From the IMG/VR virus record IMGVR_UViG_3300036817_000114, positions 1 to 34,134 of that record: DNA of 34,134 nucleotides, one strand, 5' to 3'. The position numbers were made by a program, and so were the translations under genes. Positions 8,932 to 32,756 of this stretch are shown piece after piece (positions within the stretch are counted from its first letter, which is position 1; each line of letters starts with the position of its first letter). Origin of the DNA: a virus. The notes beneath the pieces are model-generated. The model searched no databases. It was not told the DNA's origin and saw only the letters and a program-made list of their open reading frames with translations.

Positions 8932-10973
8932 TGCACCGCGCCCCATCCCGATGACGGCGCGGCAGCCGATCCAGGCGCGGATGCGCCGGGCTGCGCGTCA
9001 TAGCTGCGGTCGAGCCCCTGCATCGACGGATCGTAAACTTGGCCGAACCGATTGGTCTTGGGATCGTAGCTCGCGATGGTTCTTAGCGCGTTCATCGCCT
9101 GCGGATTGTAGTGGAGCGCGTCATGCCCGGTGTAGCGCTTATAGTCCGCGTTGGCGTCCTCCATTGTGTTGACGGCGTTCTCGGCGTCAACCTGTAGCTG
9201 GCTTCCGCGCAGGAACTCCGGCCCGGCCGTGAAGTTCGTGTTGCGCATGACGCGCTGCACGTCGCCTTCGTGGAAGTTGCCGGTCTGGCTCGCGATCGAC
9301 TGCGCCTCTTGGACATAGGTGTTGTAGGCGGCGAACACCCGGCCCCACCTCGGGTCGCCAGTGAACCGATTGTTGAGCCAGTTCTCCAACGCGCCTTCGG
9401 GCGGCTTCTCGCCCTCGGGGATTTGCTGCAACGCCTCAAGCAAGGTCCGGCCCGCCGCCGCCATGCTCTCCGTGCGGCCCATGCGCCTGCCCGTCGGGCC
9501 GGCGTCGTATTCCTTGTTCAACTCGGCGATGCGCGGGAAATCGGCCGCGTTCCATCCGGGCTTCACCGCGAGCGCCAGATCGCCAAGGTTGCTCCAATAG
9601 GGCCGCGAGCCGACGGCCCCCATGCCTCCAGGCAAGCCCACCTTGCCGTCAAGCAACTTGCCCCAATCGGCCGCGATGGACGGACTGACCGCGCGAAGCT
9701 CGCTGTCAATCTGTTCGCGCGACTTGCCAGCGGAGTGCGCCACAACATCGTCAAGCCGTTGGTTCACGTCCGCTTCGTACTCGCGCGCCGAGCTGACAAC
9801 CTTCTTCGGCAAGCCCGTCGTCTCTGCGGGCTGCCCGCGCGCCATGTCGAGGCCGATTTGCTGATAGGGCAAGAGCTTCGAGTTCGGGTCCGGCTGCGGC
9901 AGACCGCTCGCCGGATCGTTGGAGGCGACTTGATCGCCGGGCGGCACTGCGCCGGGCTGAGCTGCGCCAGGAGCCGCGCCGCCCGCTGCCGGCGCTTGCG
10001 GCCCGGCTGCATTCGAGGACGTGGCGCCGGGCTGTTGCTGCGTTCCGGGGGCTTGCTGTCCGGGCTGTCCGGGCTGCTGTTGGGCCGGGTCCGGGGGAAC
10101 GCCCCACTTCGCCGCGTCGGCGTTGTCTTGATCCTCGGTCGCCTTGTTGGCCTTTTGCAGATCCTGCAAATGCGCGTCGCGCTGTTGCTGAAACCACATG
10201 ATCTGAGCCATCGGCTTGCCGTCATGCAGAAGGTTCGCGATCTGCGTGTCGCCGAGCTGGTCGGCCTGACTGAGCATGGCGTCGCGGAGGCTGACGCCAT
10301 TGATAGGCTGGATCATTTTCAAGGGATCGAGCGTGTTGTTCTCAACCGAATATTCGCTGAGAATATCGGCGTAAGCGTGGTGCTCATCCTCTTGCTGAAT
10401 TTGCAGCTTGGCGGCGTTCAGCTTCATCTCGTCGAGCGCCATTTTGGCCTTGTATTCCTGCCCTTCCTGCAACCCCTTGACGTACTCGGCGGCGTGGCCG
10501 GTCAAGAGGAAGGCGAGCGGGATCGAAGTCTGCGAACCGTTCTGTTGGAAAAACTGCCCGACGCCCTGATAGATCGACGGCACCTCGAACGGCTGCGGTA
10601 AATTCGGATATTGCTCGGGCTGGCCCCAATCGCTGAAATTGCGGGTCGGCCGCGACTTGATGAACGGTGTAAACTTCGCTGGCGGCTGTTGCGCGCCGCG
10701 AGGGAGCGCGAGGCTCGCCGTGGTTCCGGTCTGGCGAGGGCCGCCCGGCATGGGCGGCGGAGGCGGCTGCAATTGGCCCTGCGGCCCGATCGTCGGCCCC
10801 TTCGGGGACTGCGGAGCTGGCGAACCGCCGAACATCTGTTTGAACGCCGACGCGAGGCCGCCGAGAGCGTTCGGGACTTGGCTCGGCTTCGGCGGCGCAG
10901 CGCCGATCCCCGGCATATCGGACTGAAGGCCGCCGCTCGCCGTCGTGTCGTCTTGGCCGAATGCGTCGCTCAT
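8928..10973 (-). CDS. Large structural protein, probable internal virion protein (681 aa)
   Basis: Low-complexity Pro/Gly N-terminus, a central helical region (GLQEGQEYKAKMALDEMKLNAAKLQ about residue 180), a Gln/Pro/Ala-rich linker (about residues 295-365) and a long helical C-terminal half (YDAGPTGRRMGRTESMAAAG, QRVMRNTNFTAGPEFLRG). No enzymatic motif seen. Coupled by ATGA to both neighbours, the transglycosylase-bearing protein upstream and the Ala/Gly-rich protein downstream. The trio resembles the three large internal core proteins of T7-like phages in position, not in sequence. Confidence 0.65.
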   Translation of the reverse strand: MSDAFGQDDTTASGGLQSDMPGIGAAPPKPSQVPNALGGLASAFKQMFGGSPAPQSPKGPTIGPQGQLQPPPPPMPGGPRQTGTTASLALPRGAQQPPAKFTPFIKSRPTRNFSDWGQPEQYPNLPQPFEVPSIYQGVGQFFQQNGSQTSIPLAFLLTGHAAEYVKGLQEGQEYKAKMALDEMKLNAAKLQIQQEDEHHAYADILSEYSVENNTLDPLKMIQPINGVSLRDAMLSQADQLGDTQIANLLHDGKPMAQIMWFQQQRDAHLQDLQKANKATEDQDNADAAKWGVPPDPAQQQPGQPGQQAPGTQQQPGATSSNAAGPQAPAAGGAAPGAAQPGAVPPGDQVASNDPASGLPQPDPNSKLLPYQQIGLDMARGQPAETTGLPKKVVSSAREYEADVNQRLDDVVAHSAGKSREQIDSELRAVSPSIAADWGKLLDGKVGLPGGMGAVGSRPYWSNLGDLALAVKPGWNAADFPRIAELNKEYDAGPTGRRMGRTESMAAAGRTLLEALQQIPEGEKPPEGALENWLNNRFTGDPRWGRVFAAYNTYVQEAQSIASQTGNFHEGDVQRVMRNTNFTAGPEFLRGSQLQVDAENAVNTMEDANADYKRYTGHDALHYNPQAMNALRTIASYDPKTNRFGQVYDPSMQGLDRSYDAQPGASAPGSAAAPSSGWGAVQ

Positions 10974-13345
10974 TGAGACGCCGCTTGCACTGGCGCGTCA
11001 TTAGCAGACGTGATCGGTGTATTATCGAAATTCTTCTGGACGACATTCCCGTTCGGGTTCGGGGCCATGTTCCCACCGGTCGCCGTCGTCCCCGGCGCCG
11101 AGCCGCCGCCCGCGCCGTAATTCCAGGCGAATTGCCTGCCCGCTTGGCCTGCCGGCTGGCGGCCGAAACCCATACGCTGCGCCGTGGTCCACGGCCCCCA
11201 TCCTCGGGTCTGCGCATAGCGGAGCGCGTAGACGATCTGATCTTTCCACGTGTTCGGATCGCGCGGGTCCTCGCCGGTCGCCTGCATGAACGCCTGACCG
11301 AGCGCGCCCGGCGCGATGTCGAGCTGGAAGGGTCCGTGACTGCCCGCGCCCGGATCGCGGGGATTGGAGTAGTTCTGCCCGTAGGCGCTCTCCGCCTGGA
11401 GCACGCGCGAGGCTTGGTTCGGGTCGATCCCCAAGCTCTGCGCGACTTGCCGGGTGAACTGATCGGCTTGCTGCCCGGTGTAAGGGAGCGGCTGGCCGTT
11501 AGGGCCTCGACCGGGCGTCGTGCTCGGCGGGCCTGCATAGCCGCCGCTCGCGCCGCCGCCGCCCTGACCGCCCTGACCGCCCTGACCGCCGAACCGGCCG
11601 CCCTGCCGGAAGCCGCCGCCCTGACCGCCGCCGCCCATGCCCGGAACGTTGATCCCCAAGGCCTGCAAGATCGGCGCGAGCTGGCTCATGTCGCCACCGC
11701 TTCCGTCGCCGCCGTCGAGCCCCGACGCCACCCCGCCGCCGACTTGGCCGCCCATGCTCGCGGCATATCTCGGGTCAAGCGGTCGCCAGCCGCCGCCAGG
11801 ATGATGGTTGAAGCCGCTCCAGCCCATGCCAGGATGATGGTACGGGTACATGCCGGAGCCGTGGCCGCCAGGATGGCCGCCCTGAAACCGGCCGCCGAAC
11901 CGGCCATGCCCGCCGCGCCCCCACGGGAAACCCCGGCCGTGGAAACGGCCGCGCCCGCCGAACATTCCTCCGCCGCCGCTCATGAGACCGCCGAGCAACG
12001 GCATGACCGCCTGCGCCAGCTCGCCAAGCATCTGCGGGACGCCCTGCATGCCGGCTCGATCGCGCGTGATGTTGCTCACGCCGCGACGGCCGTCGCCGTC
12101 CATGTGATAGGGCCGATCGCCGTCGGAAGGCTTCTTTGTCGGCAACGCCGCGTTGCGCTGATCCGGCGTCGAGTTGTCGGCTTGCTTCTTGGCCTCCGAG
12201 GGCGACACGCCTTGGCTCTTGAGCCACTTCTCGTAATCGGCCTTGCTCGGCGGATTGGTCGCATCGTTCGCGCCCTGCCCTTGCGGCGGCGGAGGCATTT
12301 GGCCCCGGTTGCCGACGGCTGGCGCGGTCGCGTTCGGCGTCCCCGGCCCTCCTGACGTGGTTCCCGCTGGCGTCGGTTGATTGGCGGGCAAGCTCGGGTC
12401 AGGCGAATATTGCTGGCCCGGATAGGGCATGTTGCGCTGGTCAGGCGGGATGTTGGCCGCCGTCGGCGGAAGCTCGCCAGTCTCGGCGGGCGTCGGCTGC
12501 ATAACGGCGCCAGCGACGCCCAAGGGCGAGCCTCGAGCCACGGCGCCCGCCAAAGCCGGAGCGCCGGCCGCCGCCGCTGCGGAGCCGGGACCTATCTCAG
12601 GAGCGGCTGGCGTGCCGCTGTCTTGCGGCGCGGCCGCCCCGCCGACGGCGTTCTGGCCCGCCGCCGCAGCGCGGGGATTGCGCGCCGAGCCGATGTTGGG
12701 AGCGCCAGCGTTGGAGCTTAAGCCCGGAATGCGCGGGATGTCGGTCGGCTGATCGGACGGCGGCGAGTCATCGGCGCTGCCGCCCTCAAGCGGGCTCGAC
12801 GGAGCCCCGCCTGTCCCTTGCGGGTTTTGCCACGGCGACGGCGAAACGCCCTGCCCCCGCGTGTACTCGCCGAGCCAATCGCCCTGCCCGCCGCCGCCAC
12901 CGGCCCCACCGCCGCCAGCTCCCCCGCCGCCGCCAGCGCCAGCTCCCCCGCCAGTCTGATAGGGGTTCTGGCCCTGACTTTTGGCGATGCTGCTCTTGAG
13001 CAAGTTCGCCAGCTCGTCGCGCGTCGGCGCGGTCCACTTCTGTCCCGGCGCTGGCATTTGGCCGCCCGGAGCGTTGTTGGATTGAGGGGTCGCGCTCGCT
13101 GGCGCTTGGCCGGGCGGGTTGATCGCTTGGCTCGCCGAGACGGAGCCGGTCGGGTCAACCGCCTCTTGGAATGACTGCGCCGGATTGGAAACCTGTCCAG
13201 GCGCGGCGCTGCCGCTCATCATCGACGAAAGCGCGCTGCCGATGTCGCTCCCCCCGCCGCTGCCGGAAAACGCGGACCCGACGCCGCTAAGGGCGGACCC
13301 AATGCCGCCAGCTAAACCGGAGAGAGCGTCGCCAACGTCGCCCAT
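10970..13345 (-). CDS. Gly-rich virion protein with C-terminal lytic transglycosylase domain (791 aa)
   Basis: Residues 1 to about 600 are extreme low complexity, rich in Gly, Pro, Gln and Ala, including a run of Arg/Gly/Phe/His (about 440-510). Around residues 620-730 is a globular domain: QFTRQVAQSLGIDPNQASRV, LQAESAYGQNY with candidate catalytic Glu 652, SHGPFQLD, and ALRYAQTRGWGPWTTAQ. The E-S-x-x-G plus GPFQ pattern is that of a lysozyme-like transglycosylase (SLT/phage virion muralytic enzyme). It probably opens peptidoglycan during DNA entry; no other muralytic enzyme is seen, so it may also help lysis. Its start codon abuts an operator copy (13347-13367). Confidence 0.75.
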   Translation of the reverse strand: MGDVGDALSGLAGGIGSALSGVGSAFSGSGGGSDIGSALSSMMSGSAAPGQVSNPAQSFQEAVDPTGSVSASQAINPPGQAPASATPQSNNAPGGQMPAPGQKWTAPTRDELANLLKSSIAKSQGQNPYQTGGGAGAGGGGGAGGGGAGGGGGQGDWLGEYTRGQGVSPSPWQNPQGTGGAPSSPLEGGSADDSPPSDQPTDIPRIPGLSSNAGAPNIGSARNPRAAAAGQNAVGGAAAPQDSGTPAAPEIGPGSAAAAAGAPALAGAVARGSPLGVAGAVMQPTPAETGELPPTAANIPPDQRNMPYPGQQYSPDPSLPANQPTPAGTTSGGPGTPNATAPAVGNRGQMPPPPQGQGANDATNPPSKADYEKWLKSQGVSPSEAKKQADNSTPDQRNAALPTKKPSDGDRPYHMDGDGRRGVSNITRDRAGMQGVPQMLGELAQAVMPLLGGLMSGGGGMFGGRGRFHGRGFPWGRGGHGRFGGRFQGGHPGGHGSGMYPYHHPGMGWSGFNHHPGGGWRPLDPRYAASMGGQVGGGVASGLDGGDGSGGDMSQLAPILQALGINVPGMGGGGQGGGFRQGGRFGGQGGQGGQGGGGASGGYAGPPSTTPGRGPNGQPLPYTGQQADQFTRQVAQSLGIDPNQASRVLQAESAYGQNYSNPRDPGAGSHGPFQLDIAPGALGQAFMQATGEDPRDPNTWKDQIVYALRYAQTRGWGPWTTAQRMGFGRQPAGQAGRQFAWNYGAGGGSAPGTTATGGNMAPNPNGNVVQKNFDNTPITSANDAPVQAASQ

Positions 13346-14642: not shown

Positions 14643-14914
14643 TCATCCGGTCCTTGCGACAGATTGATGTCGTTAATAGCAATCGTTGACGGCAGTGTAA
14701 TCGCGGGAAACGCCGAAGCAAAATCGCTGTGCGCCTGCGCGTGATCGCTGTTCCACCATCCGGCCGGCACCTCCGCGCCCAGGATCGGATCGAGAAGGTA
14801 GGGGACGGCCGAATAGGCGCCAGCGGGAAGCGCGGACCACATGTTTTGGTGGAGCTGGTCGTGATCGAAGGCGAAACTCGGCCCCTTCGGGTTCAAGAGG
14901 CTCGCGACGCTCAT
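14579..14914 (-). CDS. Hypothetical structural-region protein (111 aa)
   Basis: Soluble protein with many Trp/Asp residues (WWNSDHAQAHSDFASAF, SQGPDEWWALSN). No known motif. ATGA overlap with the upstream gene. Being between tail and internal-virion genes it is probably a minor virion or assembly protein. Confidence 0.6.
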   Translation of the reverse strand: MSVASLLNPKGPSFAFDHDQLHQNMWSALPAGAYSAVPYLLDPILGAEVPAGWWNSDHAQAHSDFASAFPAITLPSTIAINDINLSQGPDEWWALSNKVAHDIATTALTGA

Positions 14915-15225
14915 CGGCGCGGCCGGTTGAGCTGTTCTGTGACCGCATCCGACGGAATGTCGCCGAACCGGTTGCGCGGCGTCCCCATCGGGTCGAAATC
15001 TCGCGGACTGATCCGGTCCATGCCGAAGTCGGATCGAGCGCTAACGTCGCCACTGACGGGGCCGCTTGCGCGAGGTCCCACGTCTTGTGAGGTCCCCGTT
15101 CGCAAAGGCCCGGCGAGTGAGCGATCGGACCTCTGCACCCCATCCGGATTGACGTAAAATCCGGTCGGGCCTTGCCGCTCCGTCCCATTGGTTCTGCCTC
15201 TCGGCCATTCGCGCTGTCCTGCCAC
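14911..15225 (-). CDS. Basic, disordered hypothetical protein (104 aa)
   Basis: Rich in Arg, Gly, Asp and Pro with no hydrophobic core, so probably largely disordered (GTERQGPTGFYVNPDGVQRS, ISPRDFDPMGTPRNRFG). GTG start at 15225 with AGAGGT upstream. It follows the resolvase gene after a 45-base gap. Function unknown. Confidence 0.55.
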   Translation of the reverse strand: MAGQREWPRGRTNGTERQGPTGFYVNPDGVQRSDRSLAGPLRTGTSQDVGPRASGPVSGDVSARSDFGMDRISPRDFDPMGTPRNRFGDIPSDAVTEQLNRPRR

Positions 15226-15270
15226 GATTACCTCTTTTGCTTGCGCTTCTTCGATCGCCCCTTGCGGAGG

Positions 15271-15810
15271 TTACGCCGCCGCGCCCGCTTCTGTGCTGTT
15301 GACCCTCGGGCCATGAACCACCTTCAAATCGAACGCCAAAAGCCCGGCGACGCCGATCAAGGCGCTCTCGGCAAGGCCGTCACTGTTCTTGAGCGCGAAC
15401 CGGCCAGCTTTAGAAGGCCAGCGACGTATCGCCTCTGCTCGCGCCGCGTCCTTTGCGCCTTCCTTGCCAGGAGCGATGCCAATGACCCGCTTCCACTGAG
15501 GCGAAGTGATCCAAACGGTCGGGATGGCGGCGCCTGCAAGAACGCCTCGAATAACGCCCTTGCTATCGCCGAATGCGAAAGCCCCGCCAACTCCCTCGCC
15601 CGGTCGTGGGCCGACGCGTTCGACAAACGCCGTGCGCGCGTGCGACTTGTAGACAATCTCAGCGAGGAGCGGGGCATTGATGGTTCGCCGGTTTTTCGGG
15701 CCGTCGTGAAGGCACGGCATGTCAAATACTTCGATTAACGCGCCGGTTTCAATCAGAAGGGCGATACCGCCCTTAATCCCTATGTCAATCCCCAAAACAT
15801 AGTCCGTCAT
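15271..15810 (-). CDS. RuvC-like Holliday junction resolvase (179 aa)
   Basis: RNase H-like fold signature: strand with the first acid in VLGIDIGIKGGIAL (Asp9), second acid in AFVERVG (Glu64), and the last helix acids in NSDGLAESAL (Asp144, Glu148). The middle (PTVWITSPQWKRVIG) fits phage RuvC-like nucleases. It would cleave four-way junctions, for example to debranch concatemers before packaging. It lies in the late block directly after the Arg-rich micro-genes, overlapping the last one by TGA/ATG. The ATG at 15810 is chosen for that coupling and because the domain begins there. Confidence 0.8.
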   Translation of the reverse strand: MTDYVLGIDIGIKGGIALLIETGALIEVFDMPCLHDGPKNRRTINAPLLAEIVYKSHARTAFVERVGPRPGEGVGGAFAFGDSKGVIRGVLAGAAIPTVWITSPQWKRVIGIAPGKEGAKDAARAEAIRRWPSKAGRFALKNSDGLAESALIGVAGLLAFDLKVVHGPRVNSTEAGAAA

Positions 15811-15980
15811 CGCTTGCCCCCGCGAACCGGCCCGGTCCTGCCGCCAGCGCGCGGCGTCGATCGCTTGTGCTTGCGCCGCCCACGGCGCGCGCCGGACCAA
15901 TCCGACGGCCAAGCGTCGCCGCTCCAAGGCATGACGTTGACGGGGCCTCTGTTCCCCGGAGCCTTGAAACGGCGAGCCAT
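15807..15980 (-). CDS. Arg-rich micro-protein 5 (57 aa)
   Basis: 57 residues with 12 Arg and 4 Lys. It begins MARRFKAPGN, has a Trp-rich middle (MPWSGDAWPSDWSG) and a basic end (ARRGRRKHKRSTPR, PVRGGKR). ATG is preceded by GGAGGGTGTA, a strong ribosome site. Its start overlaps the previous micro-gene (TAATG) and its stop overlaps the resolvase start (ATGA). Likely binds nucleic acid or packs with virion DNA; no homologue is recognised. Confidence 0.7.
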   Translation of the reverse strand: MARRFKAPGNRGPVNVMPWSGDAWPSDWSGARRGRRKHKRSTPRAGGRTGPVRGGKR

Positions 15981-16126
15981 TACACCCTCCGCCTAGACCG
16001 CTTGCCGCGCCCAACGCCTTGGCGATGTCCTCGCCCGCGATGAATGCGCGTCGTCGGCCGCACGGTTCCAAGTTTTCCAGCAGGGTCCACGCGGGAACGC
16101 GGCCCAAGATAGGTTCCGCGAGCCAT
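15980..16126 (-). CDS. Arg-rich micro-protein 4 (48 aa)
   Basis: 48 residues, 13 Arg and 2 Lys, starting MARGTYLGPRSRVDPAGK and ending in a GRGKRSRRRV tail. GGAGGATGTG precedes the ATG. Shares the MAR start with micro-protein 5, possibly by duplication. The stop of the preceding micro-gene overlaps its ATG (TGATG). Confidence 0.65.
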   Translation of the reverse strand: MARGTYLGPRSRVDPAGKLGTVRPTTRIHRGRGHRQGVGRGKRSRRRV

Positions 16127-16245
16127 CACATCCTCCTGCCCTTGCGATAAGAGAAGAGCCGGGGCCGCCAAGACGGCATTCGCCAGCTCTTTTGCTTAAG
16201 CTGCCTCTGCAAATTTTGAGTGTTGCGGAGGCCTAAGCGCTTCAT
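16126..16245 (-). CDS. Lys/Arg-rich micro-protein 3 (39 aa)
   Basis: 39 residues, 9 Arg and 4 Lys, Gln-rich centre (NTQNLQRQLKQKSW) and basic C-terminus (LFSYRKGRRM). It has no good ribosome site of its own but its ATG overlaps the preceding stop (ATGA), so translation would be coupled. Confidence 0.55.
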   Translation of the reverse strand: MKRLGLRNTQNLQRQLKQKSWRMPSWRPRLFSYRKGRRM

Positions 16246-16316
16246 CGCCGCTTACGGGCTCGGATGCGACGGGCTCGACGGGTCATCCGCAACGGACGGG
16301 ATCGACGCCAAGCCAT
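16242..16316 (-). CDS. Arg-rich micro-protein 2 (24 aa)
   Basis: 24 residues, 12 of them Arg plus one Lys, starting MAWRRSRPLR and ending RIRARKRR. The ATG is preceded by GGGAGGGTCCG, one of the strongest ribosome sites in the window, which argues that it is translated. Composition is protamine-like. Confidence 0.65.
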   Translation of the reverse strand: MAWRRSRPLRMTRRARRIRARKRR

Positions 16317-16328
16317 CGGACCCTCCCT

Positions 16329-16400
16329 TTACCTTCGCCGCCAGCGCCGGGAGCGCCTACGACGTGCTTCAGTGAAATCGAACTGAGTGGGACGGTCCAT
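16329..16400 (-). CDS. Arg-rich micro-protein 1 (23 aa)
   Basis: 23 residues: an acidic/aromatic head (MDRPTQFDFTEA) and a tail with 9 of 11 residues Arg. AGGAGAGACCCACA precedes ATG. First of five consecutive Arg-rich micro-genes; separated by 12 bases from the next and by 67 bases from the gp10-like gene upstream. The head could dock to a virion or packaging protein while the tail contacts DNA; this is inference. Confidence 0.65.
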   Translation of the reverse strand: MDRPTQFDFTEARRRRSRRWRRR

Positions 16401-16427
16401 TGTGGGTCTCTCCTTATCGAACGTGCC

Positions 16428-16445
16428 GACGCCCTCTATGGCGTC
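16428..16445. other. Hairpin between tail gene and Arg-rich cluster
   Basis: GACGCC (16428-16433) and GGCGTC (16440-16445) with a six-base loop. No T-run follows on the minus strand, so it is more likely an RNA processing or stability element than a full terminator. Confidence 0.4.
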
Positions 16446-16467
16446 TCCGCATGGTCAGCCTCTTCGT

Positions 16468-18087
16468 TTAAGCGCCAAACAGGGTCCGCTCTTCAGCCGC
16501 GACGTGTATGCGCTCCAAAGTAAAATCCGGCGAAATCGAACGTAAGTCAATGGCGCCCCAAATTCCGTGGCCATCGACCGGCTGTGGGATGATCTTGTGC
16601 TGCGTCCCGCCAGTCAGCTCGAAATCCACGCTCTGCACGCCGCCAGGAATGCCGCCGTCGCCGGTCTCAAGCTCGCCCTCAATCGAGACGCCCCGGCCGT
16701 CGTTGTCGTCAACCTCGGCATAGACCCGCTTGAAGTTCTTGATCTGGAGCTGCGCGATCCCTTCGCCGCGCAGCCGCTTGGACACGTAGCGCTTGAGCAA
16801 CGTCTCATCGGGCTGAGCGAAGAGCTGATAGAGGTTCGTCCCGTCCGTCCCATAGGGGATCATCGAACTGTCTTGCTCGTATGTCCCGATGTTGGTCAGC
16901 TCGACGCCTTGGCTCGCGACGGACCAAAATTTCCTCTCGGGATGGTACATGAGTAACAGGTTTCGCGTGACGCCCCACGGGTCAGTGAAGCGCCCGTTGG
17001 CGAGCAAGACGCGGAAACCGAACATCGTCGCGGGCGCGAACGTCGGCAGATAAAGCGACGTGTCGAGCGTCTGCCAAACCCCTGTCACCTTGTCGCCGAT
17101 CGGCTGCGCGTCGCCGCCCGTCATGAGGAAAATCCCGGCGTCGTTGAACAGCGCCATCTGGCGGCCGATCGCGCCGACTGGACGCGGGAAGCGCTGCCCG
17201 ACTTGCGGATCGATGTTCTCGTAATTGAAGTTCGTCGTGTACGGGCTCTCGGGCGTGCCGGAGCCGGTGAGCTGGATATTGCTGATCAAATCCGTCGAGC
17301 TGTCGCCGTAGACGAAGAGATAACCGGCCGCCGCGTGCAAATCCATGTAGCTGTAGACGAGCTTGTCGCCGAAATAGCCCATCGAGCCGCCGCCGTTCGT
17401 GGTCGAGAAGTCCGCCCCGTTCGACGGCGCCGAGAAGCTGATCACGTCCTTACCAGCAACCCAAAGCCGCGACTGGTAGACTTCCATCGCGTAAATGCCG
17501 GGCAGACCTTGCGGCATGGGCGGGATCGTCCCACCGGGGTCGGTCTCCTGAATGTCAGTCAGCCAATCGGGCGCGGGCTCGCCGGGCGAGGTGAGCGTTG
17601 TTCCATCCCACGCGTAGAGGCCCAAGGGGCTTCCGAAGAGAACGCCGCCTTGCTGGCCAGCCGCCGCGCCGTAAAACTGCGGGCGCCACACCTTCGCGTC
17701 AGCCCAAAGCTGCGGAAAGACCGGCGACCAAATCGGCCCCTGCGCCCGAAGGCCGGTCACGGACTGTGTGTTAAGATCAACTTCGTCAATCGTCCCATCG
17801 CTAAGAAACATCCACCCCATAGCGCCAGGAGGAGGAGCACCGAACTGAGGGGTAAGATTACCGTAAAAACCAAAACCGACACGAAGGATCGTCGTCCCGG
17901 CCGGCGCGGTGTAGATCGGGGCGCTTCGCCCCCAACAGGAGCGGAGGTTGCCCGGACCCACTGCAAAGAGATTTTCATTCCAGAACTCCTCCTGATCGTC
18001 TATACTCCCCTGCTTCGATTGCTGATTTAGACCCTTGAACTGATCAAGGGTCATAAGCTCCGGGGGGTTGTCCGATTGGATCGGCAT
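16468..18087 (-). CDS. Tail nozzle/DNA stabilization protein, P22 gp10-like (539 aa)
   Basis: Repeated short beta units with WD-type spacing suggest a beta-propeller. The stretch YQSRLWVAGKDVISFSAPSN followed by GADFSTT is the hallmark of P22 gp10-type tail proteins (RLWVAG..I..S....DF). It would form the lower part of the tail tube and keep DNA in the capsid. The length (539 aa) is near that of gp10 proteins. The first 12 bases overlap antisense with the HNH gene at 18076. It follows the adaptor-type gene in the late block, as expected for a podovirus tail. Confidence 0.7.
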   Translation of the reverse strand: MPIQSDNPPELMTLDQFKGLNQQSKQGSIDDQEEFWNENLFAVGPGNLRSCWGRSAPIYTAPAGTTILRVGFGFYGNLTPQFGAPPPGAMGWMFLSDGTIDEVDLNTQSVTGLRAQGPIWSPVFPQLWADAKVWRPQFYGAAAGQQGGVLFGSPLGLYAWDGTTLTSPGEPAPDWLTDIQETDPGGTIPPMPQGLPGIYAMEVYQSRLWVAGKDVISFSAPSNGADFSTTNGGGSMGYFGDKLVYSYMDLHAAAGYLFVYGDSSTDLISNIQLTGSGTPESPYTTNFNYENIDPQVGQRFPRPVGAIGRQMALFNDAGIFLMTGGDAQPIGDKVTGVWQTLDTSLYLPTFAPATMFGFRVLLANGRFTDPWGVTRNLLLMYHPERKFWSVASQGVELTNIGTYEQDSSMIPYGTDGTNLYQLFAQPDETLLKRYVSKRLRGEGIAQLQIKNFKRVYAEVDDNDGRGVSIEGELETGDGGIPGGVQSVDFELTGGTQHKIIPQPVDGHGIWGAIDLRSISPDFTLERIHVAAEERTLFGA

Positions 18088-20294: not shown

Positions 20295-21052
20295 ACCGAA
20301 AACACCTGCGTAATGTTGGCGAAACCCGCGCCAGCGATCACGACATTCTGCCCGTCGGCGTGAACCGAGCCGCCAGAGTTGAAATTGACCAAGGTGACGC
20401 CCGGAGCGCGGCGGTCAGGCCGCCAACCGAAGAAATTGGGCGGTCTGCGGCCCGGCAGAGGCCGGATTGGCGGGTCTGTGCGCCCAACGCGCCGCTGCCA
20501 CGCCCTCCAAGCCTCCAAATAGTCGTTCGCCTTCCAAAAACGCTCGGGCGGATGCGGGCGCCACTCTGTTCCGTCCCACCACCATCCTGTTTCATGTGAA
20601 ACAGCGGCCGGTCGCGGTTCATCGAAAAATCTTTGGGGCAAATTTCGAGTTGCAGCGATCGCGGGCGCCACAGCCGACTTCAAAACCGAGGCGACGGCGG
20701 CGGTTTGCTGCGGCGGAGCCCCCCGCCCGCCCTTGCCCCGCGTGATCTGCGCATTGACCCGCCATACCGTCGGCGCGGGCGGGCAAGGCGGCGGCCCCCA
20801 CGACGGCGGCTGCGGTCCATACCCCGGCCCCTGACCGGGCAAAAGGCCGGTTCCAGGCACGCGAGGCGGGTTATAGGGGACAACCTCGGGTCGGAACATG
20901 ACGACGCGGTTCGATCCGGTCTGCACAACCCACGTCCCCTTCGGCAGCACGTAGCCGTGCCGATGGAAGCGCAGATTGATGGTGCGCGGCCTCCCGAACG
21001 GCGAAAGCTGTGAGCCGGGCGGGCCGGGAGGCCATGCGGAGACCGGAAGCAT
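20291..21052 (-). CDS. Structural-region protein (253 aa)
   Basis: Starts with Pro/Gly-rich sequence containing two beta strands (RTINLRFHRHGYVLPKGTWV, RVVMFRPEVVPYNPP), then a disordered middle, then WWWDGTEWRPHPPERFW and a C-terminal beta repeat (VTLVNFNSGGSVHADGQNV). No family recognised. Its ATG overlaps the capsid stop (TGATG), so its synthesis is coupled to the major capsid protein; a decoration or minor capsid role is plausible. Confidence 0.6.
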   Translation of the reverse strand: MLPVSAWPPGPPGSQLSPFGRPRTINLRFHRHGYVLPKGTWVVQTGSNRVVMFRPEVVPYNPPRVPGTGLLPGQGPGYGPQPPSWGPPPCPPAPTVWRVNAQITRGKGGRGAPPQQTAAVASVLKSAVAPAIAATRNLPQRFFDEPRPAAVSHETGWWWDGTEWRPHPPERFWKANDYLEAWRAWQRRVGRTDPPIRPLPGRRPPNFFGWRPDRRAPGVTLVNFNSGGSVHADGQNVVIAGAGFANITQVFSV

Positions 21053-22068
21053 CAGAAGTCAGCGCCCCCGGTGATGCCTCCGATGATGACGCCGGTCGAA
21101 GGCTTCGAACACACGAGATTGAGCGCCGTGAGGCTCAACCCCACGGATGCGATCTGCCCTTGCGGGATCGTCGAGTACCAGCCGGTCCAGGCGAAGTTCG
21201 CATCCTCATGGACAACGAGCGTGATGTACTTGGAATTGAAGCCGATGGCCGTCCCTTGCGGGCAATTCAGGTCGAAAAATAGTGGAGTATCGCCAAGGAG
21301 CAACCCGCGAAAACCACTATTAACGGGATCGTCCTTTCCCCACCGTGAAGAGGGATCATTGTTGTACCTTTCGACTGACATGAAGTCCGTCAACAAGGTA
21401 GTCCAATCTTCCACCGACATTACGACGAAATCGAGCGCTTCGCCGCCTGAGTTTTTGACCGACGAAAGCATGTTCGGAATGAACGCGGCGCGGGTCAGGA
21501 TGTCGCCAGCGGCCGGGATCGAGAGGCCCGCCCAATCGGGATAGCCCGCCGCGCCGGTGCGCGCGAGCCCGCCATAGGGCGTCGTCGTGCCATAGGCGTC
21601 GGCCAGCGAATACATCTGCAAGACGTTCGTGGTCGGCGGTCCGAAGAGCGCGCCAGCGAGCGATTGAAGCGCGCTGTTCTTGAGGTCGTTGAGCTTGAGC
21701 ATGAGACGGCTCGCCACCGCGATCGCGTCCTGCGTCACAAGCTGTTCCAAGCCGAGCGAACTGACCGGTGTCGCCAGACAGCACATGTTGAACTCGGCGT
21801 TGACGGTCGCGGCCACGTCCTGCGGCAAGTCGAACTGGCCGGCAGGGCCAATCCAGCTCGACTGGACGTACTGACCCGTTTGCACGGGTTGGGTGTAGGG
21901 AGAGACACCGCCGCTGGCCCTGATGGCGTTCCGCAATAGCAGCGCCAGCAAGGGGTTTTGCTTGTAGATCAGGATGACAACCATCTGCGCGAACACGCGC
22001 CGCACGGTTGCTTCCAGCTCTAAACCGATCGGACCCGACGGGATGATGCCTGCGCCGAGTTGGGGCAT
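21052..22068 (-). CDS. Major capsid protein (338 aa)
   Basis: Size, position after scaffold and portal, and composition fit a HK97-fold major capsid protein: N-arm with Leu/Ala-rich helix (LLALLLRNAIRASGG), beta-rich core (QSSWIGPAGQFDLPQDVAAT), P-domain helices (LVTQDAIAVASRLMLKLNDL) and a phage coat-like SVEDWTTLLTDFMSVERYNN followed by LLLGDTPLFFDLNCPQG. Ribosome site GGAAGG upstream. No catalytic or crosslinking residue can be assigned. Confidence 0.8.
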   Translation of the reverse strand: MPQLGAGIIPSGPIGLELEATVRRVFAQMVVILIYKQNPLLALLLRNAIRASGGVSPYTQPVQTGQYVQSSWIGPAGQFDLPQDVAATVNAEFNMCCLATPVSSLGLEQLVTQDAIAVASRLMLKLNDLKNSALQSLAGALFGPPTTNVLQMYSLADAYGTTTPYGGLARTGAAGYPDWAGLSIPAAGDILTRAAFIPNMLSSVKNSGGEALDFVVMSVEDWTTLLTDFMSVERYNNDPSSRWGKDDPVNSGFRGLLLGDTPLFFDLNCPQGTAIGFNSKYITLVVHEDANFAWTGWYSTIPQGQIASVGLSLTALNLVCSKPSTGVIIGGITGGADF

Positions 22069-23622: not shown

Positions 23623-23734
23623 GTTTTACCCCAAGAGCCGCCCCCGCAGGGCCTTGGGGGGTTACGACGACGGGAGCGGCCTTCCGTGCGCTGGAGGGGT
23701 CCAGCGGCAGGGCGGGCCGGAAATTAGCCGTCAA
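23615..23734 (-). CDS. Very small protein between portal and head protein (39 aa)
   Basis: TTG start overlaps the portal stop (TTGA), with AGGGGG five bases upstream. Product starts MTANFRPALPLDPSSARK and is not hydrophobic. The stop overlaps the next ATG. Supported by coupling only. Confidence 0.45.
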   Translation of the reverse strand: MTANFRPALPLDPSSARKAAPVVVTPQGPAGAALGVKHG

Positions 23735-25467
23735 TGCGCCCCCTGTCGAGCCTTGCCCTTGGGCGCCCGTCCCCCGCCGCCTGTGTTGATCCCCATGACG
23801 CCCGCGATCAAACCTTCCTTCTTGTCCTCGGCGGCTTGCTTCGCCTGCGCCTTCTGCCGCTGTTTCAGCCGCGCCAGCAAAAGCTCGGCGCCGGGCGGAT
23901 GGAGCATGTGGATCAGATCCTCGGCATCGATCGCTCCCGCGCGGGCAAGCGCGATTGCAACTTGTCGGTTATCCTCTGCAAAAGCCGGCGACGCTGAGTG
24001 GCTGTCAACGCTGACTTGGTAGCCGCTTGGGAGCTGGCTGAGTAGGAACTCTTGCTTGGTGTCGGCGGTTGTGTAGACGAGCGCGTCCATCGCCTGCATG
24101 ATGCGGAGCGCCAGAAACCCGACATCCGCAAGCTGGCGTTCAATCCTGGCCGCTTGGTCGATAAGCCTGCCCCCCGATGTTCGCACCAGGGTTTGAGCAT
24201 GGACGCCAGCGCGGACACCCGGCTCTCCTTGTCCGGCCATGACCGGACTGAAACCACTAGCTTCATCGAACAGTTTGAAAATAAACTCAAGCTCTTCCAA
24301 GTAGTTTTCGGGCGGCGGGTCCAGTAATTTCGACGCTTTCGCATTTGGGTTCGGGTCGTTAATAAAACCTCCTTCGTTGACAATCTTATAGTATTGCTCT
24401 TCCGAGACGGAGGTGAACCCACTGAATACTTGCGGAGCGTTGACATTACGATCCCACATCACCTTGATGTCGCGGAGACGCTTGGAAAGCATGTCCTGCA
24501 ACATCTGCACGCTCGCCACGATCGAGCGCCCCCAAAAGTAGCCCGGCGTCTGCTGGCCCTGAACCTTGACGAACGGCGTCTTGCCCGGAACGCGGCTTAT
24601 GTTCCGTCGGGTTTTATCCCCTTCAATGATAATTGGCTCGGCCCCGTAGATCGTTTGGATCGTGGTCCAGTCCTCGGCCCGGTCGCGGTCTTTGATCCAT
24701 ACTTCGCAGAGTTTGACTGTGGGCGCGAAGCGCCTTTGTGGTCGCCAAGGGGTCGGAACGGGGAACACGTTGACAATCCCGGCCGCTGAGCTTGGCGCGT
24801 CTCCCACGTCTCCGAGGGGCTGGAGGCCTCCAACAACCATCTGATGGAAATATGTCGGCTCTTCCTCATCGCGGTCAGGCCCCGGATCGTCGTCGAGCTG
24901 TTTCATGATCTTCTCGTAATCGGGATGATCGAGAAGCATCGTGCGCAGCTTGGATTTTGTCGGGTAACTGACGTGACAGACGGCTTCCTGCTCGTCAATC
25001 GATAAGGTTGTCTCCGAGAGCACGCCGAAATTCTGCGGATGAACCGGCGCGGTCTTGAACGTCCCGCTGTCTCCGTCGGGGAGAACCTTCATGATCTGGC
25101 AACCGTTGACGAGCGACCAGACCACAGCCTCCGCGAATAGCACGTCAGCGTCAGTCGCGCGAAAGTCGGATGTCAGCTTCTCGGCGACGAGCTGGCAGCG
25201 CTCGAGCACGTCCTCTTCCTCGCCGCTGTCGTAAGAGAGCTGGAAGCGGACATCGGTCGGCTGCATGAGATAGCCCGCGAGCTTATCCACGAACGGGCCG
25301 ATCTTGTTGTAGAGCGCCGCCCGGCTGTCCATCGAGCCCATGTAGTAATATTGGCTGGCCCGCGTGTAGACCATGCCGCGCTCGGTCGCGCTCGCCATGC
25401 ACTCGTCGATGATTTCCTTGATCCACAGCTCAAGGAAGCCAGCCTTGTTGGGGATGCGAAGCGCCAT
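23731..25467 (-). CDS. Portal protein (578 aa)
   Basis: Position downstream of the terminase and the size fit a portal. Typical features: RASQYYYMGSMDSRAALYNK near the N-terminus, YFWGRSIVASVQMLQDMLSK and the C-terminal helical crown/barrel part (ARLKQRQKAQAKQAAEDKKE). Related to the P22/T7-type large portals by layout. It would form the dodecameric ring at the capsid vertex through which DNA is packaged. Confidence 0.8.
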   Translation of the reverse strand: MALRIPNKAGFLELWIKEIIDECMASATERGMVYTRASQYYYMGSMDSRAALYNKIGPFVDKLAGYLMQPTDVRFQLSYDSGEEEDVLERCQLVAEKLTSDFRATDADVLFAEAVVWSLVNGCQIMKVLPDGDSGTFKTAPVHPQNFGVLSETTLSIDEQEAVCHVSYPTKSKLRTMLLDHPDYEKIMKQLDDDPGPDRDEEEPTYFHQMVVGGLQPLGDVGDAPSSAAGIVNVFPVPTPWRPQRRFAPTVKLCEVWIKDRDRAEDWTTIQTIYGAEPIIIEGDKTRRNISRVPGKTPFVKVQGQQTPGYFWGRSIVASVQMLQDMLSKRLRDIKVMWDRNVNAPQVFSGFTSVSEEQYYKIVNEGGFINDPNPNAKASKLLDPPPENYLEELEFIFKLFDEASGFSPVMAGQGEPGVRAGVHAQTLVRTSGGRLIDQAARIERQLADVGFLALRIMQAMDALVYTTADTKQEFLLSQLPSGYQVSVDSHSASPAFAEDNRQVAIALARAGAIDAEDLIHMLHPPGAELLLARLKQRQKAQAKQAAEDKKEGLIAGVMGINTGGGGRAPKGKARQGAH

Positions 25468-26532: not shown

Positions 26533-28341
26533 TCAGAATGCTTCCTTTCGGGCCTTGACGTTCGCTTTCTGGTTAATCTTGCGGATGTGCTCGGAAAAAG
26601 CAAACGAGAGCACAGTCCCGGCGTTCTGCGGCGGACGCTCGCCCTTCACGCTGTCCCACGTCAACTTGCGCGCGATCAGCCCGGCGCGGCGCCACTCAAC
26701 CCACGTGTGATGCGCGAGAACCGTCGCCGAGACAAGATCATCGTTAACCCCCGTGTCCGGCCCCGCGCCAATCCAGCCGCTCTCTTCCTCGACGATCGCC
26801 TGCAATTCCTCGACCAAACGGATCGACCGGAACTCGATCCGCCGCAGCATGAGACTGTCGCGGAGCGAACTGTAGACCATCGACTTGTTGTCCTGATTGG
26901 TTTTCCAGGCGATCACGTTGCCCGCCCCGCCCAATGTGTCGGCGCGCCGGTAGAGGAACCATCTGACCGCGCCGATCATGTTCAAGATGTTCTCTGAGCC
27001 CGGCTCGCCCTGAAGAATGCCGCGCTCGGCGAGCTGGCGGAGGTTGCGCACCTCGGGGATCACGGCCGCGCCGACGCCGCTCACTTCGATGTTGGCGAGA
27101 TGGTCCTTGTACGCGCCGCACAAATGCGAGAGCACCCACGCGAACTGATAGGTCAAAGGCTTGTTCGATTGGAACTCGGCGACTTGCACAAGCCGGTCGG
27201 CGTAGCAGCGGAACACCTCGATCGCGTGATCGTTAGCGTCGCCGCCCCCGCCCCCGCTTGGATCGCCGCCGATGACGTATATTCCGTTTGGCTCCGGGGG
27301 CTCCCACACCCGAAGCATCGCCTCTTCGCGCTTCGTCGTTTGGGCTATCGACGATCCAAGGAAGGCATCCTCGAAGTTGTATTTGTAGCCCTTGTAGGGA
27401 GGTCCGCTCGACAGGTTCTCGCTCAACTCCAAAGTCCGTTGGGCGGGGAAGAATGCAGACCCCGAGGCTATGAAGCACTCGCGTTCGTTCCACGGATAAT
27501 GGCGGAGCATGTATTCCTCCGCCCGAAATTCCGCCTCTCGACGCCACCATGCGACTTGCTCCGGCTGCACTGTCACGCCGTACTCGCGCCGCACGTAGCG
27601 GGCCTTCTCAACCTCTTCCGCCGTCAGCCTGCCGTCCCAATAGGTCCGATAGTCCGGGTCTGCGCGCGGGATCGAATACGTCGGGTTCGCCCAAAAGCCG
27701 ACGAAGATGAACCGCATGTGGCGGTCTTGCTTCGCTTGCTGGCAATGATTGTAGAACCAATTGAAGCCGTTCGCGATGCTCTCCCAAATGTAGAGCCGCC
27801 GAGGGTTCACGCGCGCGAGCGAGGCCTTCAGGCTCTCGACGCCGGCCAAGCTCTTCCACTGCCCGCACTCGGTCGCGTGCATCATGTTGAGCGCGCGGCT
27901 CGCGCCAAGATCGGGATTGCTCGCCGCCGCCATGAGGTCAATCACGGACTTGTTGGCGAACACCATGCCGGTGCGATTGTTGCTGATCAGCCGCGAACCG
28001 ACGGTGCGCCACTCGGGCGGCAGGGTCTCCAATAGCGCGGCGAAGATGCGCCGCAAACGCTCAAGGTTGTCCGTCCTGTCGGCGATGATCGCGCCCTGCA
28101 CGCCGGGGTTGGCGAGCGCCCAAAACAATTCGATCACACTGCAAACCGTCGTGATCGCCACCTGACGGCACTTCAAAACGACAAATTCGTGGACGCCCTC
28201 TTGCAAGCCCTTCGACACGGCGTCGATGACGAGCCGCTGCGACATCCACGGATCGACATGCGTGCGGCCCTCTTCCTTCGTGTCAATCTCAACTGAGCCT
28301 AAGAGGTCATAAATGCCCTGACGAATGCTTGGTTGGGTCAT
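26533..28341 (-). CDS. terL: Terminase large subunit (602 aa)
   Basis: ATPase and nuclease domains in order. The Walker A region is FVVLKCRQVAITT (about residues 53-65); in this family the pattern is usually RQxGIT, so the Ala is a small deviation. Walker B region is LNMMHATECGQW. Nuclease acids are visible in IGGDPSGGGGGDANDHAIEV and, near the C-terminus, GVNDDLVSATV. It drives DNA into the capsid and cuts concatemers. Coupled by ATGA to the HNH gene. No small subunit is recognised nearby. Confidence 0.9.
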   Translation of the reverse strand: MTQPSIRQGIYDLLGSVEIDTKEEGRTHVDPWMSQRLVIDAVSKGLQEGVHEFVVLKCRQVAITTVCSVIELFWALANPGVQGAIIADRTDNLERLRRIFAALLETLPPEWRTVGSRLISNNRTGMVFANKSVIDLMAAASNPDLGASRALNMMHATECGQWKSLAGVESLKASLARVNPRRLYIWESIANGFNWFYNHCQQAKQDRHMRFIFVGFWANPTYSIPRADPDYRTYWDGRLTAEEVEKARYVRREYGVTVQPEQVAWWRREAEFRAEEYMLRHYPWNERECFIASGSAFFPAQRTLELSENLSSGPPYKGYKYNFEDAFLGSSIAQTTKREEAMLRVWEPPEPNGIYVIGGDPSGGGGGDANDHAIEVFRCYADRLVQVAEFQSNKPLTYQFAWVLSHLCGAYKDHLANIEVSGVGAAVIPEVRNLRQLAERGILQGEPGSENILNMIGAVRWFLYRRADTLGGAGNVIAWKTNQDNKSMVYSSLRDSLMLRRIEFRSIRLVEELQAIVEEESGWIGAGPDTGVNDDLVSATVLAHHTWVEWRRAGLIARKLTWDSVKGERPPQNAGTVLSFAFSEHIRKINQKANVKARKEAF

Positions 28342-30183: not shown

Positions 30184-30367
30184 TGTCGTTTGCTTTCTCG
30201 ATTTCACAGCCGAACAGTTTGCGAACCGTCGCCTCTTCGCTCGGCGACAGGTCCATGCCGATCACGATGTTGCAGCCCATGCAGCGGGTCTCGTCAGCCG
30301 GGCCGCCGAAAAGGAAAACGTTGATCCCGCAATCGGCGCAGACAAATTCACGCGCTACCAAGGTCAA
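30146..30367 (-). CDS. Small zinc-ribbon protein (73 aa)
   Basis: CADCGINVFLFGGPADETRC-x-x-C gives two CxxC knuckles 15 residues apart (FVCADC and RCMGC), a zinc ribbon. The rest is helical (SPSEEATVRKLFGCEIEK). TTG start at 30367 with AGGGGG upstream; TTG at 30361 is equally usable. Overlaps the exonuclease gene by 20 bases. Confidence 0.65.
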   Translation of the reverse strand: MTLVAREFVCADCGINVFLFGGPADETRCMGCNIVIGMDLSPSEEATVRKLFGCEIEKANDNAIRPTDAGSGR

Positions 30368-31082
30368 GCTCTCCCCCTTCCTCCGGGTTGATAATCGTCA
30401 GCGGCGGAGCGTCCGCCGCGTCCCCGTAGGCCGCGTCTTGCGGACGCTGAATGCGGCGCATTACCGCGTAGGCGCCGAGCATCCTGGCGCGCTCCGTCGT
30501 CACGTCGAGCGCATCGCAGAACGATGACAGCGCCGAACGCAAGACGCCCTGATAGCGCGGGTCGGGAACCGTCACCTTGTGCAGCGGCGGCATCTGAGGG
30601 TGCCAACTGTAAAAGTGGACAGCGCGAAACTCGCCAATCAAAATCTGCCCCTGGACTTGCGGCTTGTAATCGTCGCCCGGCCCGTCCAACAGATATTCGA
30701 CTTGCGTCCACGGCGCCGGACATTTCACCTCGACGCCCTCCGTCAGGCCGCGCAGCGTCCGGTCCGGCGAGGCGACCAGCCGCCCGTCATCGGTCGCGAC
30801 CAGCCCGCCCGGCTCAAGCTGCACCTCGTTGGTGAAATTGAACTGCGCGACGGCGTTCGGCTCCTGCTCCTTGCCGCGCGCCACCCATTGGACGAAGCCG
30901 ATTTCGTCGTCCATCGTTTCGTTTAACAGCCGCTCAGCGACCAAACGGTAGAGGTATTTGACCGCCTGTCTCGACGGCTCCCCTTTGGGCGTAACTATCT
31001 TATGAAAATTCGAGGCCGTCGGCCTGCCGAGCCGGGCCTGATACCACGCCGTTGACCCTTGTTCGATCTTGTAGAATTTCAT
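30348..31082 (-). CDS. YqaJ/lambda-exonuclease-type recombinase nuclease (244 aa)
   Basis: MKFYKIEQGSTAWYQARLGR-P-TASNF at the N-terminus is the family signature (RxGxxTAS). The catalytic region is LVASPDRTL with EGVEVKCPAP (acid, then E-x-K), and YKPQVQGQILIGEF follows as in YqaJ proteins. It degrades DNA 5'-3' to expose single strands. With the ERF annealing protein upstream it forms a two-component recombination system. ATG at 31082 has GGAGGGAGCG upstream and overlaps the HNH stop. Confidence 0.85.
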   Translation of the reverse strand: MKFYKIEQGSTAWYQARLGRPTASNFHKIVTPKGEPSRQAVKYLYRLVAERLLNETMDDEIGFVQWVARGKEQEPNAVAQFNFTNEVQLEPGGLVATDDGRLVASPDRTLRGLTEGVEVKCPAPWTQVEYLLDGPGDDYKPQVQGQILIGEFRAVHFYSWHPQMPPLHKVTVPDPRYQGVLRSALSSFCDALDVTTERARMLGAYAVMRRIQRPQDAAYGDAADAPPLTIINPEEGGELDLGSA

Positions 31083-31468
31083 CGCTCCCTCCGTCGAGCA
31101 TTCCAGCAACGGCGACAACCCCGTCTCACTTTCGGCCTCCGCGCCAAAACCTCGTAAGGATCACCGCATTCATCGCAGACGAACTTTTGAGGTTGACCGC
31201 GCAGTCCGCGCCGCACGTTCACGCCCGGCGTCACGGGCTCAAGGTGCGCCTCGTTGATGCAGCATCGCGTGCGGCAAAGATGATCCGGCAGCAATCCGAG
31301 CGGGATTGGACCATTCGCCAGCTCATAGGCGACGACGTGGGCCTGACGCATTCGGCCCGCCACCTTCATGCGGCCGTACCCCTTGTCGTTGAGCGCGCCC
31401 ATCCAAATCAAGCAACCGCTGTTCGGTTCCGGGATCGACCACTGTTCCAAGCGTTCCGCGAGCGTCAT
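31079..31468 (-). CDS. HNH endonuclease in the recombination block (129 aa)
   Basis: HNH core: PNSGCLIWMGALNDKGYGRM, AHVVAYELANGPIPLGLLPD, HLCRTRCCINEAHLEPVTPG (His-Asn-His present) and a C-terminal CDECGDPYEVLARRP zinc motif. ATG at 31468 with GGAGGGAGCG, identical to the leader of the exonuclease gene. It overlaps the gene upstream by 107 bases. Likely selfish element. Confidence 0.85.
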   Translation of the reverse strand: MTLAERLEQWSIPEPNSGCLIWMGALNDKGYGRMKVAGRMRQAHVVAYELANGPIPLGLLPDHLCRTRCCINEAHLEPVTPGVNVRRGLRGQPQKFVCDECGDPYEVLARRPKVRRGCRRCWNARRRER

Positions 31469-31798: not shown

Positions 31799-31998
31799 TG
31801 CCTCAACCTCCGCTCATGTTCGGCCCACCATTCGCGAGCGATGCTTTGAGGAAAGAAAGCGCTGTCAGGCGGCGGCGTTGTGCGCGGGCCGTCGAGCCAG
31901 TCAGTGATCAGCTTGCTTTCCCAACTCGCCATCCGCCATGAGCCGTAGAGTATTCCTGCGAACAGAATTGCTCCGCCGACAACAGCGAGCGTCGTCAT
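31795..31998 (-). CDS. Small N-terminal membrane-anchored protein (67 aa)
   Basis: N-terminal span (TLAVVGGAILFAGILYGSW) then a soluble tail (WESKLITDWLDG, AREWWAEHERRLRQ). AAGGAAG precedes ATG; coupled at both ends. Orientation or role not known; could be an early membrane effector. Confidence 0.6.
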   Translation of the reverse strand: MTTLAVVGGAILFAGILYGSWRMASWESKLITDWLDGPRTTPPPDSAFFPQSIAREWWAEHERRLRQ

Positions 31999-32756
31999 TT
32001 CTGGACTTCCTTTCGCACCGTCTTTCGCAGCTTGTCGCGCAGCGCCAGCTCTAAGCGCGGATAGTCGCGCACGCGCACGTCGGCGATCGCGTCGGCGCCG
32101 CTGACCATGATCTTGAGAAAGTTCGCTTCGTTGGTCTCGGTTTTCTTGATCAGGTCGGTAAGCGTCTTGATCTGCGTCGCGTCGATCAAGGCCTCCATCG
32201 CCCCCTTGCCGTCGTCATCCTTGCCCTTCCTGACCACGTTGCAAAGATCGTCTGTGATGTAGCGCTTGGCGTAGCGCCGGCTCGATCCGCGCGCCTGTAG
32301 CGCGTTCCTGCCCGGCCCCGCGTCTGGCGGCAACGTGTACGTCGAGTTTCGCTCCCAACCCCAACCGGCGAGCGTCCCCGTGATCGTCACGGCGTCCTTG
32401 TCGTCGCGCGAGGTGAAGCTCAAGGCGAAGCCGTGCTTCGCCAAAAGCGGGCGGATGATCACGTCCATCCCCTCGATTGTGGTGAACGCATAGCGGCCGA
32501 CTTCACGCCCATCCTTGACGAGCGCCACCGTGCCGTCGCGCTCGACTTGCGGCATCTCGGCGGAGAAGTCGGCGTAGTGCGCTAGGAACGCCTCGCGCGC
32601 TTGGTCGGCCAACACCTCGCGGCGCATCTTGAGCATCACCTCAAGCTTGTCAGCCGGAACGTCCGGGTTCGTCAGGAGCGTCATCAACGTCTGCGCGAAC
32701 GTCTCGGCGGGCCGGTCGGGGACAGGCGCCGGAAGCGGGTTTGGTTCGTCGGTCAT
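31995..32756 (-). CDS. ERF-family single-strand annealing protein (253 aa)
   Basis: ERF superfamily layout: helical start, then AFLAHYADFSAEMPQVERDG, YAFTTIEGMDVIIRPLLAKH, GFALSFTSRDDKDAVTITGT and SSRRYAKRYITDDLCNVV (the A/S-KRY-x-x-x-D/x-L signature of annealing recombinases). Anneals complementary single strands in recombination and circularization. AGAGGGATGGC ribosome site. Works with the nuclease at 30348-31082. Confidence 0.85.
   Translation of the reverse strand: MTDEPNPLPAPVPDRPAETFAQTLMTLLTNPDVPADKLEVMLKMRREVLADQAREAFLAHYADFSAEMPQVERDGTVALVKDGREVGRYAFTTIEGMDVIIRPLLAKHGFALSFTSRDDKDAVTITGTLAGWGWERNSTYTLPPDAGPGRNALQARGSSRRYAKRYITDDLCNVVRKGKDDDGKGAMEALIDATQIKTLTDLIKKTETNEANFLKIMVSGADAIADVRVRDYPRLELALRDKLRKTVRKEVQK

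Follow-up and report, generated by a model that had tools for sequence, protein, structure and literature searches.

Arginine-rich microprotein genes behind a tail nozzle gene

The 34,134-base IMG/VR virus record IMGVR_UViG_3300036817_000114, analysed here over its whole length and referred to as the window, carries its late genes on the minus strand. Between its tail nozzle gene and the large late proteins lies a cluster of very short open reading frames (ORFs) encoding arginine-rich microproteins. An earlier note on this DNA had described five such ORFs of 23, 24, 39, 48 and 57 codons. All five (F1–F5) are present exactly where it placed them, on the minus strand, and are as strongly basic as it claimed, with 9 to 13 Arg each and an isoelectric point of 12 in every case. 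The count itself was too low, as two further members, F0 and F6, had been missed. Linkage by stop-start overlaps holds for three of the four internal junctions (ATGA at F2/F3; 1 nt at F3/F4 and at F4/F5) and fails between F1 and F2, which are separated by a 12-nt gap; F5 and the adjoining resolvase gene share a further ATGA. Ribosome sites (Shine–Dalgarno, SD) precede four of the five ORFs, as had been stated.

The net charges of F1 to F5 are +7, +13, +13, +14 and +14, and that of F6 is +15. Depending on the family, Arg accounts for 24–51% of residues, compared with 9% for Arg and Lys together in the large proteins of this phage. Acidic residues are scarce except in F1, and there is no long hydrophobic run. 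Dinucleotide shuffles of the cluster stretch (n=1000) yielded a mean of 0.07 comparable ORFs and a maximum of 2, against the 5 observed. Outside the cluster, no 620-bp stretch of the window held more than one Arg-rich ORF, and a search of the window for a second Arg-rich cluster found none.

Conservation and selection in related viruses

Scanning with the nozzle recovered 48 further viral contigs, and family profiles were then built for F1–F6 and for two families that the window lacks, F8 (RRRMVLVPASRRAARARRRGRRR, 8 loci) and F9 (6 loci). The array is present in nearly all of these contigs that have enough downstream sequence. The search of relatives that the earlier note had proposed thus finds the cluster at the same place and in a fixed order, F1-F2-F3-(F8)-F4-F5-resolvase-F6, with F8 placed elsewhere in a few loci. 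Start and stop codons overlap by one base at 55 junctions and as ATGA at 10, and an SD motif stands before 26/27 F1, 38/40 F2 and 40/40 F4 ORFs. The 1.72 kb behind the nozzle gene (41 loci) hold on average 4.95 Arg-rich, SD-led ORFs, compared with 0.33 in other stretches of the same strand and 0.13 on the opposite strand; the figure is 5.0 for 51 loci reached via the capsid gene, many of whose contigs are shared with the set of 41. Even the loosest members (L041, L042, L048) keep F3, and in L041 and L048 F4 is seemingly represented by divergent ORFs ending in QRYRRSYRRGR. A scan with F4 by itself gave 68 loci in IMG/VR, with the nozzle gene 218–1438 bp upstream in 57/57 viral loci examined (L062–L118).

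The ratio of non-synonymous to synonymous substitution (dN/dS), taken from codon alignments of independent pairs, is 0.19 for F1, 0.11 for F2, 0.19 for F3, 0.16 for F4, 0.23 for F5, 0.19 for F6 and 0.07 for F8. In all families, substitutions fall mostly at third codon positions, e.g. 97/70/322 over the three positions in F4 (322/489 third) and 38/26/158 in F2. Because dN/dS lies at 0.07–0.23 and third positions are in excess, the genes of F1–F6 and F8 are almost certainly real, protein-coding and under purifying selection. Conservation of the reading frames relative to synonymous change, on which the earlier note had staked its claim, is borne out by the same values.

The opposing view takes the ORFs for accidents or shadow frames of GC-rich DNA, or for spacer in which Arg codons do no more than provide SD sequences (AGGAGG reads Arg-Arg); we rate it as next to negligible. 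It can draw on the enrichment of AGR, which makes up 33% of Arg codons at the last six positions of a gene but 14% in the rest, because an Arg-Arg pair near the end of one gene often doubles as the AGGAGG ribosome site of the gene that follows. However, CGN makes up two thirds of the terminal and 86% of the other Arg codons, the shuffles and control regions lack such ORFs, and dN/dS refutes this view for F1–F6 and F8. The double use of AGGAGG for an Arg-Arg pair and the ribosome site of the next gene amounts to a compact style of operon.

Chance could still account for F0 and for a 55-aa basic frame. The evidence for F0 is weaker than for the other members because F0 is too short for dN/dS and rests on position and pattern. 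Pattern, position and SD are kept in the window-like relatives L002, L003, L004, L006–L008, L011, L029, L033, L034 and L043, and more distant loci have other short poly-Arg ORFs at this position. The 55-aa frame (RSLTRRAFANG...RKRPRQWRR; window 15041-15208, minus strand) overlaps the gene for a conserved 104-aa protein in the +2 frame. Among 44 relatives compared, it stays open for longer than synonymous shuffling predicts (2/200 shuffles reach its length), and it may be a dual-coding eighth microprotein or a shadow.

Table 1. Positions of the microprotein genes and of other late genes in the window
Feature	Position	Strand	Characteristics or basis
F0, 12-aa microprotein MRRRHRGRRHVR	16414..16452	minus	position, SD, pattern M(A)RRxRRGRRHxR in relatives
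F1, 23 aa, 10 Arg	16329..16400	minus	acidic-aromatic head (WLDFTED in relatives) and Arg tail; 27 ORFs in 27 loci, 23 strong
F2, 24 aa, 12 Arg	16242..16316	minus	core TRRARRIRARK; 40 loci
F3, 39 aa, 9 Arg	16126..16245	minus	C-terminal motif SWRLPSWRPRLNSYRKGRRL; 39 loci
F4, 48 aa, 13 Arg	15980..16126	minus	motif LGPRSRVDPAGK and Arg tail; 39 loci
F5, 57 aa, 12 Arg	15807..15980	minus	motifs MPWSDDAWPSDW and TPRPGGRTGPVR; 36 loci
RuvC-type Holliday junction resolvase, 179 aa	15271..15810	minus	phrog_1770, E 6.6e-23
F6, 28 aa, after resolvase	15228..15314	minus	core QKxARRRNLRKGR; 27 loci
Conserved 104-aa protein ending the module	14911..15225	minus	SDRxLAGPLRxGT...SDFGMDRxSPRxFDPMGT; without Arg tail
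Tail nozzle, 539 aa, P22 gp10 / T7 gp12 type	16468..18087	minus	Foldseek on AlphaFold2 model
Major capsid	21052-22068	minus	PHROG match
Portal	23731-25467	minus	PHROG match
TerL	26533-28341	minus	PHROG match

Exchange of the resolvase next to the microproteins

That a resolvase adjoins the cluster, as the earlier note had said, agrees with the phrog_1770 match; the assignment to RuvC comes from the PHROG profile, and Pfam gave no match. In contigs that lack RuvC, the slot between F5 and F6 is occupied by either a VRR-NUC or a PDDEXK protein. The VRR-NUC protein of L016 (+865..+1302 after the nozzle end) matches PF08774 with E 6e-5, just under the curated cut-off, and phrog_5702 ('Holliday junction resolvase') with 5e-12. 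The PDDEXK protein of L031 (+620..+1021 after the nozzle end) matches phrog_244 ('RusA-like Holliday junction resolvase') with 3e-12. Profiles were run on representatives, and other members were recognised by eye from shared motifs. The conserved 104-aa family, with 44 distinct members in the loci, lies downstream of all three resolvase types. Since the type of resolvase is exchanged while the microproteins stay, junction resolution appears to matter at this slot and the microproteins to go with it. This replacement is our best functional clue and suggests that the microproteins are tied to the processing of DNA junctions.

Branches in phage DNA are classically resolved before or during packaging, as by T4 endonuclease VII and T7 endonuclease I, and like these the resolvase found here is late and belongs to this module. 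No other resolvase operon in which Arg-rich microproteins flank the enzyme is known to us. We regard the chances as roughly even that the array encodes late nucleic-acid-binding microproteins which act with the resolvase at packaging, some of them perhaps within the head as counter-ions. The parts of this reading differ in strength. Nucleic-acid binding is likely from the composition of the microproteins, a packaging role suggested by the gene neighbours is evenly poised, and a protamine of the virion is a doubtful prediction. The analysis itself shows the existence of the genes, their selection and fixed order, their coupling to the resolvase and their late structural context.

In the mechanism we envisage, the microproteins would be made late, together with the Holliday junction resolvase, and both would act as replicated phage DNA is freed of its branches and packed into the head. 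The Arg-rich stretch of each microprotein would hold DNA, and the non-basic motif of each larger one would probably serve as docking site for a specific phage protein. Part of the microproteins would probably stay on the virion DNA as protamine-like counter-ions. To our knowledge, Arg-rich microproteins that handle or condense DNA at packaging have no precedent in tailed phages. Should they assist the resolvase, they would constitute a hitherto unknown class of cofactors for packaging or recombination.

Motifs of the families and alternative functions

In each larger family, an Arg-rich stretch is accompanied by a conserved motif that is not basic. The motifs are WLDFTED in F1 of relatives, SWRLPSWRPRL in F3, LGPRSRVDPAG in F4, MPWSDDAWPSDW and PRPGGRTGPVR in F5, and, again in relatives, MVLVPAS in F8. 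The set comprises about seven distinct, probably unstructured microproteins. One relative, L034, encodes a chimeric microprotein (MNPNLGWLDFTEDRRRMVLVPASRKAARARRRGRRR, +357..+467 after the nozzle) in which the F1 head is joined to F8, as if the motifs were exchangeable modules. Longer, RGG-rich microproteins of 75 and 51 aa occur in some relatives only (L016 +456..+683 and L036 +812..+967 after the nozzle).

The conserved aromatic and acidic motifs of F1, F3 and F5, together with the strict linkage to the nozzle gene, would also suit factors of head, scaffold or neck assembly, whose motifs would attach to the acidic interior of capsid, portal or nozzle proteins and whose Arg tail would be a signal for protein binding or assembly. 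Such a function leaves the exchangeable resolvase unexplained and finds no fusion with structural genes on its side, and we consider it improbable. Highly improbable, in our judgement, are cationic membrane-active or lysis peptides of late infection. The Trp/Arg composition of F3 and F5 does resemble that of antimicrobial peptides, but none of the microproteins contains a transmembrane segment or a long hydrophobic one, a set of at least six peptides conserved together would be redundant for lysis, and L006 has a separate muramidase-like ORF (read by eye) downstream of the module. Both assembly factors and lysis peptides fit the link to the resolvase less well than does a joint action with it at packaging.

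The near-invariance of F2 bears on a further alternative. F2 is identical in amino acids in the window and L002–L005, where the nozzle proteins share 75–83% identity. Lambdoid N and other Arg-rich-motif peptides contain a short Arg-rich RNA-binding segment to which the microproteins bear a likeness. N and NusA are dealt with in PMC4499122. The microproteins could by analogy, or in the manner of bL34 and eL41, be regulators that act by binding RNA of the phage or the ribosome and adjust translation or transcription late in infection. F2 and F6 resemble short Arg-rich RNA-binding helices, and the near-invariance of F2 is easier to reconcile with one particular structured RNA as its target than with DNA in bulk. 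However, N is early and single, whereas the microproteins are late, encoded behind the nozzle gene, and comprise several different peptides at once. Pfam returned no match at E<5 to N or ribosomal families, including the small ribosomal proteins bL34, bL36 and eL41, and the co-occurrence with the resolvase would be left unexplained. RNA-directed regulation is thus quite unlikely.

Comparison with DNA-condensing proteins

Binding of virion DNA in the manner of protamines or the J proteins, as the earlier note had suggested, is plausible. Its second suggestion, a coating of the portal-tail channel, is unsupported, and no sequence evidence points there. Arg-rich counter-ion proteins condense the genomes of eukaryotic dsDNA viruses (PMC6163548). 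Baculovirus P6.9 and the adenovirus core peptides are likewise very short, Arg-rich and late and have been proposed to neutralise DNA for encapsidation; the microproteins of the window match them in length (23–57 aa, and 12 aa for F0) and Arg content. Those systems use one or few proteins in eukaryotic viruses, whereas the tailed phage considered here has about seven different microproteins and packages with a terminase motor. Sequence homology to these core proteins was not detected in Pfam and PHROGs, nor in the PDB for F2 and F4. Protein J of the Microviridae is a small basic protein packaged with phage DNA. It belongs, however, to phages that have an ssDNA genome, a T=1 capsid and a single J, while the present virus is a dsDNA podovirus with an array and no detected homology to J; its TerL, portal, tailed-phage capsid protein and podovirus nozzle place it outside that family.

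In its strongest form, the comparison would have the genome packaged as a true nucleoprotein, with a cocktail of at least six distinct Arg-rich microproteins, handed over together with the junction resolvase, condensing the DNA as it enters the head. We consider this unlikely. We know of no protamine-type chromatin in a terminase-driven bacterial virus, and this would be the first. As an illustration, F1–F6 at one copy each carry +76 against about -84,000 for a 42-kb genome, so that neutralising close to 9% would take some 100 copies of each. Peptides that do ride in the head would be an exception to the textbook view that tailed-phage DNA is packed without basic proteins.

Distribution and evidence against a packaging role

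The array appears in none of the collections searched outside this group of contigs. Pfam gave no match at E<5 for the microproteins except a weak one of F9 to Mu-transpos_C (0.39), PHROGs gave nothing convincing (best 0.1), and the PDB had no match for F2 and F4. A search of INPHARED cultured phages, made with F4 only, found nothing. In GTDB genome contigs, scanned with F4 for a host or prophage, the single match (L119) was rejected as a chance frame antisense to a chromosomal-type gene. The nearest annotated relatives are MW202753 and MW202825, at 35% in the capsid and 33% in TerL, and the cluster is absent from MW202753 and from 21/21 contigs of that type. Because of these absences the array would seem, as far as searched, to be a trait of one uncultured clade. 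The cluster was expected to be overlooked, and the gene-family libraries do miss the microproteins. At least eight real phage gene families of 12–60 codons thus lie outside the libraries searched, and some of their genes are too short for the default settings of common gene finders.

Several observations weigh against a role of the microproteins in packaging. The nearest annotated relatives manage without the cluster. Motor-packaging tailed phages have been set apart from viruses in which genome charge scales with the capsid R-arms, and Mg2+ and polyamines have been proposed as their counter-ions (PMC7096446). With such counter-ions and motor packaging, a protamine set would be exceptional and not needed. 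The conservation of F2 exceeds what pure charge neutralisation needs; it therefore points beyond mere charge to a particular binding partner, and RNA- or ribosome-directed regulation stays in play as a rival. Exchange of R to K is no rarer in the microproteins than in the nozzle, and Arg specificity is therefore not demonstrated. A search for fusions of a microprotein to a virion protein found none; matches within longer ORFs were rejected as fusions, since the extra length seems to come from stop-to-stop reading ahead of the start codon of the microprotein.

The nozzle and other genes of the window

The nozzle protein has no Pfam or PHROG family by sequence, and a PDB sequence search gave no match. 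Its AlphaFold2 model has a low mean confidence (53.7). Searched against the PDB with Foldseek, the model nevertheless retrieved podovirus nozzles as nearly all of its top matches (VP1, Pa223, Sf6, P22 gp10, Pam1, T7; E 1.5e-7 to 1e-3), with a probability of 1.00 for the tail chains of P22, Sf6, VP1 and Pa223 (E 1.5e-7 to 1e-5). Matches in BFVD were 'P22 Gp10, DNA-stabilising' entries (E 7e-14). Because the predicted fold retrieves podovirus nozzles, the earlier label of tail nozzle for the gene before the cluster appears right, the podovirus type following from the fold of this low-confidence model.

Genes with recombination-type functions lie toward the ends of the record, all on the minus strand: a DUF932 protein (476-1582; PF06067, E 7e-42), and an ERF-type annealing protein and an exonuclease (31995-32756 and 30348-31118). 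A late protein of 791 aa (10970-13345, minus strand) is of low complexity and rich in Gly, Pro and Ala, with an RGG-like His/Arg stretch. It has no Pfam or PHROG match; judged by eye, its C-terminal part resembles a lytic transglycosylase.
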